From Lactobacillus sp. CBA3605 (lineage in GTDB: Bacteria; Bacillota; Bacilli; Lactobacillales; Lactobacillaceae): DNA of 64,000 nt. Where the stretch lies: contig NZ_CP027190.1 in assembly GCF_002970915.1 (NCBI RefSeq), positions 806,001-870,000 on the forward strand, written 5' to 3'. This document shows positions 23,630 to 26,620 of the stretch, one piece after another; positions within the stretch are counted from its first letter, which is position 1, and the number at the start of each line of letters is the position of its first letter. The notes beneath the pieces were generated by a model, which made no database searches, was not told the DNA's origin, and saw only the letters and a program-made list of their open reading frames with translations. The position numbers and the translations under genes are program-made.

Positions 23630-24901
23630 TTATTCGTTCGCTGAAGCACCTGAAATACTGTCCACTACTGGTGTCGTTGGTACTGGATTTGGTTCTGAAT
23701 CAGCGGAAGCCCCCGTCACACTATCTGGTTTAGGTGTTGCCGTTTTCGCTGAAGCGCCGGTGACGGCATCGGCCTTCGCCGTTAGATCCTTGGCTAAGAC
23801 TTGCCCAGTATGTTCGAGATAATACTTAACAATTGGCATTAAATCAAGCACAAACTCATTAATCCCTTGATAGTCACCTTGCTGATCATGCATCGCCTGA
23901 TAATAATGCATGATGTATTTTTCGGGACCATTGCCAGGCACTGGCAACTTGAATAACTTAGTCTGCCCAGTCCGTAACATATGAATGACTTGTTGAACAT
24001 GGGGAATAGCCCGTTTAGGATGACAATCGGCCATCGGGTTTCCCGCCTGGGCTGGCGTTCGGGCAGCCAACATATCAGCCGCGTCCGCATTGTGATTATA
24101 ATAAATAAATTGGTTATTTGCATCCGCAAACGTCAATTCCATTGGCATTGAATTCAAGAAATAATTCAATTGATCAACGGTTAGAACACCACGATCCAAC
24201 TTCACATAATCCTGACCTTCAGCCGCGCCCGTCTTTTTAGCAGCTTGTTCAACCCAATCAGCGGCGTGCATATCCACCCCATCAATCGTGGTTGCCACAT
24301 GCCCGGTCGCGTTCAAGTCTTCTGACTGCCAGTCGTCAGCGTCAACTTTGGCATTCATTTGATTAATCACACCGACAAACGTCACGAATTTAGTTAGGGT
24401 TGTTTTTAAGAACCCGACCGTTTTAGGATCTTTTAAGTTATTTTGATCATCAAACGCCGTCTTAACTTCACCTAATAAAAATTCATTGCCGGGCATAACC
24501 GTTGCGTCAACCCCCGGTGCTTCTAAGATTTGTCGTAAATTGAGCTGCGCCCGCGATGACCCTTGATCATAGTATGACGCGCCAACAATCATCACTGGCT
24601 TGCCAGATAAAGGATGAATCTTAAACGAAAGCCATTCAATCACACTTTTTAAGCTCGCCGTAATCGTATGATTATGTTCTGGTGTGGCGATAATCACCCC
24701 ATCAGCTTGTTTGATTTTACGACTTAGATATTGAATTGCTTCACTATTGGTTTGATCATCACTCTGATTAAACATCGGAATGTCTTGAATATCTAACAAC
24801 TCTAAGTCAACCATGTCACTAAAATGATTCGCCATAAATTTTAAAAGCGTCCGGTTATAAGACTGGTCGGCTACTGAACCCGCAATTCCAACTAACTTCA
24901 T
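23630..24901 (-). CDS. NADPH-dependent FMN reductase fused to a PAS-like domain with three C-terminal flavinylation motifs
   Basis: 423 residues. Residues 1-180 form a flavodoxin-like NADPH-dependent FMN reductase domain ([49 protein letters not shown]). Residues ~240-370 look like the PAS-like domain found with DUF438 ([36 protein letters not shown]). The tail carries three copies of the ApbE FMN-transferase target pattern D-x-x-[ST]-G-A-[ST]: DAVTGAS (378-384), DSVTGAS (393-399) and DSISGAS (414-420), in a Pro/Ala/Thr-rich linker. No signal peptide or membrane segment is seen, so it should be cytosolic. It may pass electrons from NAD(P)H through up to three covalent FMNs. No apbE lies in the window. 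Confidence 0.85.
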
Positions 24902-24916
24902 TTGAAAGACTCCTAT

Positions 24917-25525
24917 CTATAAATTATCCCAGTCAAGATCACGAACTTCTTGCTGGTTTGCCGCATTGGCATGCTTTAATTGGGTCGTGATGGTCACAAA
25001 CGTTTGAAAATCAGCTAATAATCCCGTTAACTTAGCTAACTTTTGCTGATCGATTAATTGTCCCTGGTCATCAAATGCCTGTAACGAATGGCCTAATAAG
25101 AATTCTGAACTGGGCATAATGCGCGCTCGTAGTTCGGGTGAATCCAGAATCTGTCGCAAGTGAGCTTGGGCTCTGGAAGTCCCTAATGACCCGTAGGACG
25201 CCCCAATAATCATGACTGGTTTATCGACAAACGGATGGATATGATACGATAACCATTCCAAAGCATTCATTAAAACGGCCGGTGCCGCGTGATCATATTC
25301 GGGCGTACTAATGATAACGCCATCGGCTTGATCAATTTGGGCAGCAATGGCTTTAACTGCTGCCGGAACTTGTTTATCCGCTGGTTTGTTGAATATCGGT
25401 AACGCCTTAATCTCAACCAAGTCTAACTGCGCCTGGTCGGCAAAATGAGTCTGCATAAACTGTAATAGCTGGCGATTAGTTGACTGATCCGAATTCGTCC
25501 CAGCGATTGCGATAAATTTTTGCAT
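24917..25525 (-). CDS. NADPH-dependent FMN reductase family protein
   Basis: 202 residues, a single flavodoxin-like domain and clear paralogue of the first half of the next gene (IAIAGTNSDQSTNRQLLQFM; STPEYDHAAPAVLMNALEWL; GASYGSLGTSRAQ). It lacks the PAS-like domain and the flavinylation tail. It starts at ATG 25525 and is separated from the fused gene by only 15 bases, so the two are co-transcribed and may form a heteromeric reductase (inference). Its C-terminus, DLDWDNL, resembles the linker [10 protein letters not shown] of its partner. Confidence 0.87.
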   Translation of the reverse strand: MQKFIAIAGTNSDQSTNRQLLQFMQTHFADQAQLDLVEIKALPIFNKPADKQVPAAVKAIAAQIDQADGVIISTPEYDHAAPAVLMNALEWLSYHIHPFVDKPVMIIGASYGSLGTSRAQAHLRQILDSPELRARIMPSSEFLLGHSLQAFDDQGQLIDQQKLAKLTGLLADFQTFVTITTQLKHANAANQQEVRDLDWDNL

Positions 25526-25744: not shown

Positions 25745-26536
25745 TTAATTTAAATAGATTTTCCTTAAATCTGACATTTCTTGTTTAGTTAAGTTCAATT
25801 CAGTCCGTAAATAATGTTCGACATTACCCGATTGCCGTTTAATTTCAGCTAATGCCGTATCTAAATAATCTTCATTCACAGACCAGAGCGCTTTAATGCT
25901 GGCAATCGTTGCTGCCGAGGCGCCTTGATTAGTGGCCGCTTGCACAGCACTCGTAATGCGATCCGCCGAAGCAGTATTAGTTAATAAATAATCCTGCCGA
26001 ATCGTTGCTTGGTCCACACCCAGGGCGCTTAACAAATAAACTGCCCCCATCCCAGTACGATCCTTACCAGCTGTACAATGGAATAATAAAACATCGTCGG
26101 GCTGGTCATTGGCTAATAAACTATCAAAGAAACGCCGATATTCATATTTCGCATGCGCTTCATTGGCAATCATCCGATAGACTTTCAGCATGTGCCGATA
26201 GCCACTATCCGGATGAGTTTCCAAATTAGCAGTCATTTTATCCGTCCCATCCGAATTTTTAGTTTCATCTACATTAAAAACTGGCGCATACTGATACTTG
26301 GCCTGACCAGGGACCCGGTCGGGACTATCCAAAACTTCTTTTGGTGACCGAAAATCAATATCATAACGGACACCATATTGATCTAAGTAAGCTAAGTCAG
26401 TTTGAGTCAAGCTATCTAGGCCACCGCTTCGCAGTAATTTTTGCCACTTCACGGTATGCCCATCTTTAGTCTGATACCCCCCTAATTCTCGGAAATTAAA
26501 TCCTTGCTGTATTGGTAATACCCGCTGTTTTTCCAT
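25745..26536 (-). CDS. Tyrosine/dual-specificity-type protein phosphatase
   Basis: About 263 residues with the P-loop FHCTAGKDRTGMGAVYLL (CX5R) and the upstream FNFRELGGYQTKDG motif of the Y_phosphatase3 group (bacterial LipA-like phosphatases). Substrate may be phosphotyrosine or phosphoinositide-like; it cannot be told here. Chosen start is ATG 26536 (MEKQRVLPIQQG), with AGGTGG 8 bases upstream; a GTG four codons earlier overlaps the SD. It has no signal peptide. Confidence 0.85.
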   Translation of the reverse strand: MEKQRVLPIQQGFNFRELGGYQTKDGHTVKWQKLLRSGGLDSLTQTDLAYLDQYGVRYDIDFRSPKEVLDSPDRVPGQAKYQYAPVFNVDETKNSDGTDKMTANLETHPDSGYRHMLKVYRMIANEAHAKYEYRRFFDSLLANDQPDDVLLFHCTAGKDRTGMGAVYLLSALGVDQATIRQDYLLTNTASADRITSAVQAATNQGASAATIASIKALWSVNEDYLDTALAEIKRQSGNVEHYLRTELNLTKQEMSDLRKIYLN

Positions 26537-26620
26537 TGCACAATCCACCTATTCTATAAGTTATCACGCTTCTAGTTTAACATTGCTAAGCGCTTTCGCC
26601 GAGATAATGTTCATCATTAA

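Follow-up and report, generated by a model that had tools for sequence, protein, structure and literature searches.

A FRedB-LjPAS-type FMN reductase fusion of Lactobacillus sp. CBA3605 with three predicted flavinylation sites in a conserved disordered tail

Analysis of a 64,000-nucleotide stretch of the Lactobacillus sp. CBA3605 genome (the window; positions 806001-870000 of contig C1) revealed a fusion of an FMN reductase and a PAS domain whose C-terminal tail is, judging from its sequence, very likely flavinylated, and this tail is a real feature, more conserved than one sequence could reveal and with a precedent for its chemistry. The 423-residue protein, W423 (23630..24901, reverse strand), delimited by its open reading frame, Pfam matches and orthologues, is a fusion of the FRedB-LjPAS type, for which L. 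plantarum Lp2732 and E. faecalis EF1227 are named in the excerpts of PMC4500961. Its FMN_red domain (residues 1-145; 24467..24901, reverse strand) and PAS_10 domain (residues 245-354; 23840..24169, reverse strand) matched their Pfam models above cut-off (PF03358, E 2.2e-37, and PF13596, E 8.3e-29, respectively), and a fold search placed the former near 1rtt and 3svl and the latter near 2qkp, with no function common to these matches. The C-terminal tail (residues 366-423; 23633..23806, reverse strand) is predicted to be mostly disordered, with pLDDT below 50 at residues 379-419 and 421-423. Within it, three copies of the ApbE-substrate motif D-x-x-[S/T]-G-A-[S/T] were found on the reverse strand, namely DAVTGAS (residue 378 on; 23750..23770), DSVTGAS (residue 393 on; 23705..23725) and DSISGAS (residue 414 on; 23642..23662), with Ser384, Ser399 and Ser420 as the predicted acceptors. 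The preliminary description of this DNA had placed these three motifs, spaced 15 and 21 residues apart, in a flexible linker behind an FMN reductase and a PAS-like domain, and the reading frame, the Pfam domains and the predicted disorder bear out each of these elements.

The motifs are confined to this protein, since the pattern D..[ST]GA[ST] matched three times in the 24,280 residues of the 132 open reading frames of at least 60 residues in all six frames of the window, each time in W423. When the 58-residue tail was shuffled 300,000 times, one match appeared in 1,134 shuffles and more than one in none; on both counts, a chance origin of the three motifs was rejected. A fumarate or hydroxycinnamate reductase was rejected as well, as Pfam found neither an FAD_binding_2 nor an FMN_bind domain, and the missing FMN_bind domain also places W423 outside the multi-FMN FMN_bind class. 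The closest named homologues, among the matches listed, are Lactiplantibacillus proteins.

Directly upstream of W423, on the same strand and only 15 nt away, lies the gene of a 202-residue FMN_red protein, W202 (24917..25525, reverse strand; Pfam), which we consider a FRedA-type partner. Such a pair of adjacent FMN_red genes encodes FRedA/FRedB of L. johnsonii (Valladares et al. 2015), for which the excerpts of PMC4500961 describe a heterodimer that is required for FMN binding, contains two FMN sites, is specific for NADH and reduces FMN (Km 20 uM) and FAD but not riboflavin. W423 and W202 are thus a fused version of the published FRedA/FRedB plus LjPAS arrangement, sharing with it the two adjacent FMN_red genes and the PAS_10 module, whereas in W423 this module is fused to one FMN_red domain and followed by three predicted sites. 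By this relationship, W423 is probably one half of a heterodimer with W202, and its electron donor is probably NADH, as in the purified L. johnsonii enzyme (excerpts of PMC4500961), which makes the NADPH of the preliminary description doubtful. Further upstream, a Y_phosphatase3 gene (25745..26548, reverse strand; PF13350, E 3.5e-72) is of uncertain membership in the system; a protein 34% identical to its product precedes apbE in the FMN_red-pair cluster of L. johnsonii (L175:5411-6214).

The PAS half of the published arrangement, LjPAS, is described as a 28 kDa PAS protein that, when made in E. coli, slows FRedA/B assembly (excerpts of PMC4500961). LjPAS can therefore act without flavinylation; a search of the same text for flavinyl-, covalent and ApbE gave no match. 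Our comparisons nevertheless revealed something new, in that the stand-alone LjPAS-type protein bears the same tail as W423, at the level of sequence. Full-length stand-alone PAS relatives are about 43-45% identical to W423 over about 220-244 residues, the tail included, and across the linker, the PAS_10 domain and the tail the LjPAS-type proteins reach about 43-47% identity. One to three canonical sites were present in 43 of the 44 stand-alone loci (three in 29 of them), and the sole exception without one, L162, is truncated. In L. johnsonii ATCC 33200, the corresponding protein (L124) contains the PAS_10 domain, consists of 244 residues (28.0 kDa) and carries DATTGAT, DTATGAS and DTSSGAS; on family, species and mass we tentatively identify it with LjPAS, whose source strain was N6.2. 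The genome of L. johnsonii contains a single ApbE match, by inspection without a signal peptide, and its cluster reads FMN_red, FMN_red, MupG-type, phosphatase-type and ApbE, with a 12-nt gap within the FMN_red pair that equals the gap given for fredAB in the excerpts of PMC4500961. In two other Lactobacillus-type genomes the FMN_red pair also lies close to ApbE, in one of them without the intervening MupG-type gene. A PAS_10 paralogue of 178-182 residues that ends in a single DAESGAS tag was also observed in Lactobacillus-type genomes (L110-L115).

Conservation of the tail was then followed across orthologues. The homologue search scored 1401 proteins; of the 120 listed, 103 had one or more canonical sites, whereas the other 17 lacked such a site. 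In a set of 295 genomes of one order, taken to be Lactobacillales, orthologues were counted from the match table. A full-length orthologue was present in 120 genomes, every one of which also has an apbE match, compared with 143 of the 175 genomes without an orthologue, although the relatedness of the genomes makes any p value only a guide; no orthologue occurs in the remaining 32 genomes, which lack an apbE match (20 of them were listed and 12 follow from subtraction). Loci were fetched from 60 of the 120 orthologue-bearing genomes, covering 40 genera, and in all 60 the full-length orthologue carries tail sites, which are canonical in 46 and exclusively of the Gly-to-Ser form D..[STA]SA[ST] in 14. 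Both domains and the tail are thus kept together, which answers the call of the preliminary description for such homologues and its concern that the tail might be poorly conserved. The FMN_red and PAS_10 domains show good conservation, in contrast to the tail, which differs between orthologues in its length and in its number of sites, with one to six canonical copies per tail (six in L066); three sites therefore hold for W423 but not as a fixed number, since orthologues carry one to six canonical copies or the variant only. The search for partner reductases that had been proposed earlier was equally productive, as the second FMN_red gene precedes 59 of the 60 orthologues directly, L053 being the exception. 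In 42 of the 60 loci (29 of the 40 genera) apbE lies within six open reading frames on either side, mostly second upstream, and a simple pattern located a helix-turn-helix regulator in 15 of the 60, while no apbE was found near the gene in the genus studied here (the window, L017, L018 and L086). A 713-residue relative with FMN_red and two PAS_10 stretches was observed at L055:8001-10142.

Could the tail be a degenerate disordered repeat that serves assembly, solubility or turnover and never receives FMN? The 14 loci with only the variant motif, the 17 listed homologues without a canonical site and the effect of E. coli-made LjPAS would agree with such a repeat. We nonetheless regard it as very improbable, since 12 of the 14 variant-only loci have apbE nearby, none of the 120 orthologue-bearing genomes lacks an apbE match, and the Lactococcus FMN_red extensions were flavinylated experimentally (excerpts of PMC11334425). 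In the genome of one variant-tailed orthologue (G109), the canonical motif is retained in other proteins predicted as ApbE targets; the Ser variant thus belongs to the tail, and this pattern suggests that the paired ApbE may have a wider recognition and take the Ser-for-Gly motif. In four genera, which were chosen because the pattern had been noticed there, at least two apbE matches were counted by eye, and the counts then tested, in 18 of 19 genomes with an orthologue versus 0 of 20 without. The pattern is not general, as a single apbE match is found in most orthologue-bearing genomes of genus g20, and two are found in several genomes of g39 and g24 that have no orthologue.

In the source genome (2.55 Mb), four apbE matches were identified, all of them outside the window. 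The preliminary description was right that the window lacks apbE and had left its presence in the genome to be checked; with four copies elsewhere, its absence from the window was rejected as an argument against flavinylation. Three of the four ApbE proteins lacked, in a simple test, both a lipobox and an N-terminus of strong hydrophobicity (ApbE_L014 is the exception), and three enzymes apparently without a signal peptide are thus available in the compartment of W423. A strict motif pattern matched seven times in the genome, always in predicted ApbE targets, versus four matches in the control. Besides W423, these targets comprise a 784-residue FMN_red-FAD_binding_2-FMN_bind protein, a 767-residue FMN_bind-FAD_binding_2-FMN_red protein that adjoins an apbE, and a protein with two sites whose N-terminus resembles that of lipoproteins and whose gene neighbours the lipobox-bearing apbE. 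Outside the strict pattern, an 805-residue HcrB-like protein carries DILSGAS and is accompanied by a 218-residue FMN_red gene near an apbE (L015). The FAD_binding_2 and FMN_bind domains are present in the proteins of L012, L013 and L015 and absent from W423. Around the FMN_bind-FAD_binding_2-FMN_red fusion and its adjacent apbE at L013:4043-7304, shikimate-pathway-like enzyme and transporter genes were seen by inspection. The fourth apbE (L016, C1:1017315) is an orphan with no recognised target beside it, and its product is 51% identical to the sole ApbE match of the L. johnsonii genome and clusters in the tree with the ApbEs encoded in the operons at L028 and L042 (support 94/91), albeit on a long branch and with a grouping below the tree tool's own star. 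From this identity and grouping, the signal-peptide-free orphan ApbE_L016 is probably, as far as sequences indicate, the modifier of W423.

The gene set also travels on plasmids. At E 1e-40, W423 matched 110 of 72,556 plasmid records (95 of Enterococcus and 8 of Lactococcus). On L. lactis pGdh442, a Crp/Fnr gene and a small opposite gene are followed by apbE, FMN_red and the FMN_red/PAS fusion (WP_011915228.1, with two DATSGAS sites), and five further L. lactis plasmid records that were viewed are arranged like it. The one E. faecium plasmid record viewed (L089) reads regulator, apbE, FMN_red and FMN_red/PAS, where the fusion contains only DAVSSAS and DAVTSAS as sites; this four-gene cassette is flanked by IS1216 transposase copies. 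In S. agalactiae, a microarray showed parallel changes of a gene annotated as apbE and of two successive genes for FMN reductases (-2.09, -2.11 and -2.12; excerpts of PMC6224512), yet the protein of the third gene rose 3.55-fold while its transcript fell; from the gene order, we infer that these genes are a W423-type operon. Lp_2732 was detected in an L. plantarum proteome (excerpts of PMC5430759), and a W423-type gene is therefore expressed.

Similar tags were also found beyond the reductases. Pattern searches in the genomes of L. johnsonii and of another Lactobacillus (G017) revealed that a pyruvate oxidase and a lactate-oxidase-like protein end in such tags, and D-x-x-[ST]-G-A-S tags were observed at the C-termini of Lactobacillus pyruvate oxidase and lactate-oxidase-like proteins at L234, L235, L223, L226 and L242-L271. 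Both kinds of enzyme form H2O2. For pyruvate oxidase, named from a model match above cut-off, the best 30 loci were inspected (matches occur in 53 of 61 genomes of one genus), and every one of the 30 carries a canonical tag within the final 60 residues. In 28 this tag lies nine residues before the C-terminal end; the other two have a Ser variant at that place and the canonical tag further in. For the lactate-oxidase-like proteins, which were named from source names and from a top-scoring model that stays under its cut-off (392 of 645.5 bits), a canonical tag lies in the last 60 residues of 63 of the 120 listed homologues, divided into 62 of the 86 closest (P0241-P0326, some of them fragments) and 1 of the 33 more distant ones (P0328-P0360, two of which are fragments of the closer type), with P0327 excluded from both groups. 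In L. johnsonii, the pattern was matched 14 times, compared with once in the control; besides the PAS proteins the matches include FAD-reductase-like and YtxH-like proteins and some places without the motif in an open frame, and an internal FtsH match was taken as a false positive. A looser pattern was noisy in eight genomes, as judged by matches against the backwards control (G000, 28/28; G163, 8/8; G231, 37/23; G011, 18/9; G003, 20/7; G126, 17/6; G017, 12/0; G109, 11/0), and only 20 selected places were therefore read, several of which had no C-terminal tag. At L222 (2515-4275 and 5342-7246), two flavocytochrome c-type reductases with an N-terminal motif and an extra C-terminal tag were observed.

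These findings lead us to a working model in which W202 and W423 would form a cytosolic heterodimeric NADH:FMN reductase of the FRedA/FRedB type, and a signal-peptide-free ApbE, probably the orphan at C1:1017315, would link FMN through phosphoester bonds to all three serines in the tail of W423. NADH would reduce the FMN in the FMN_red pocket, from which electrons would pass to the tail FMNs, so that tethered flavin would take the place of diffusible FMN as the substrate and the flexible tail would serve as a swinging arm, much like a lipoyl arm. Docking or gating of the tail FMNs may fall to the PAS_10 domain, and the tail FMNs would hand their electrons to an acceptor. The preliminary description had suggested a possible electron hub for an acceptor yet to be named; O2 (giving H2O2) is the best documented one in the relative, but a different flavoprotein or an acceptor used in anaerobiosis may serve instead. 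Taken as a whole, we hold this model to be moderately probable; the missing apbE beside the gene in this genus, the 14 loci lacking a canonical motif, and the activity of FRedA/B with free FMN and of LjPAS made in E. coli weigh against it. A carrier arm fits the flexible spacing, the variable site number and the independence of the tail from the FMN_red domain, and the use of FMN but not riboflavin by FRedA/B agrees loosely with a phosphate-linked FMN. The tail serines might instead tether FMN into the protein's own FMN_red pockets and provide no extra carrier flavins, which is how the Lactococcus extension was interpreted, with the motif modelled near the FMN pocket (Huang et al. 2024; excerpts of PMC11334425), and the binding of FMN by FRedA/B (KD about 2 uM), which purifies part-empty (excerpts of PMC4500961), would suit such a role. 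Yet a chain can bear up to six sites (L066), more than the two pockets that a heterodimer offers, which favours carriers, the PAS domain separates pocket and tail, and the tail also occurs on stand-alone PAS, pyruvate-oxidase and lactate-oxidase-like proteins. On balance, cofactor fixing appears unlikely as the sole role, even though a carrier arm and tethering of the pocket cofactor could both hold.

A further possibility concerns the acceptor and is therefore compatible with the swinging-arm model, namely that the tail FMNs react mainly with O2, making the protein an H2O2-forming NADH oxidase that serves as peroxide generator or oxygen scavenger and is tuned to oxygen by its PAS domain. Two points argue against this assignment: free reduced flavin forms H2O2 without a tether, and the Crp/Fnr gene next to the operon of L. 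lactis would be just as consistent with use under anaerobiosis. On the other hand, FRedA/B, which functions with free FMN, yields H2O2, knock-out of its genes abolishes H2O2 in L. johnsonii, and LjPAS expression is repressed more than 3-fold under anaerobiosis (excerpts of PMC4500961); the tagged oxidases of Lactobacillus point in the same direction. We consider an oxidase role plausible, if rather less than probable. More broadly, the Lactobacillales may possess a cytosolic covalent-FMN economy, in which FRedA/B-type reductases feed FMNs on disordered tails, either PAS_10-fused or on a separate LjPAS, oxidases are tagged, and Enterococcus-like ApbE may take D-x-x-S-S-A-S; for this wider proposal we see the case as evenly balanced. 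Within it, LjPAS would carry electrons on covalent flavin in addition to its role as a regulator, and, with a flavin tag added to the pyruvate oxidase and lactate-oxidase-like enzymes of Lactobacillus, main H2O2-forming flavoenzymes may exchange electrons via tethered FMN.

If true, the fused form of this NADH:FMN reductase, an H2O2 producer in probiotic and dairy bacteria, carries its substrate flavin on a tether, the published work on LjPAS as a regulator lacked a likely cofactor, and a tail-borne multi-copy carrier would join the known cytosolic ApbE targets, the soluble fumarate reductases. The conserved gene set, including the Lactococcus plasmid copies, makes the proposal directly testable in tractable laboratory strains, and the oxidase tags offer a second, independent test. 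In the literature searched, which covered few subscription journals, natural C-terminal flavin tags on oxidases were not found, and neither were the PAS-linked multi-site tail, its operon with apbE and the link to LjPAS, nor a confirmed case of covalent FMN on an FMN_red-PAS_10 protein.

W423 was also compared with other known systems. A precedent comes from two Lactococcus FMN_red proteins with C-terminal motif extensions that, co-expressed with their own apbE, were found to contain covalent FMN dependent on Ser/Thr (excerpts of PMC11334425), so that the flavinylation chemistry, demonstrated in 2024, is not new, and an ApbE-modified soluble FMN reductase is less unusual a design than the preliminary description had supposed. 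Like W423, these proteins have an unstructured C-terminal extension with flavinylation motifs, of which one to two are reported, compared with three in W423. A search of the available text of PMC11334425 for PAS returned no PAS domain, and its excerpts do not describe a partner FMN_red; no match of WP_021723379.1 and WP_205872264.1 from that study to the FMN_red-PAS_10 architecture was established, and the former was not found among the features listed for plasmid record NZ_CP129293.1. The pair at L015 (218 and 805 residues), which we infer to be the hydroxycinnamate reductase HcrA/HcrB, follows the FMN_red pair logic of W202/W423 with apbE nearby, and its N-terminal FMN_red is 57% identical to W423, but the HcrB-like protein has FMN_bind and FAD_binding_2 domains, whereas W423 has neither. 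The multi-FMN FMN_bind proteins (Tong et al. 2023; PMC10339131) carry several covalent FMNs per chain, as proposed for W423, although theirs reside in folded domains and the W423 sites lie in a bare tail. Finally, for ApbE a tag of only seven residues is enough and performs best when terminal (excerpts of PMC12052999).
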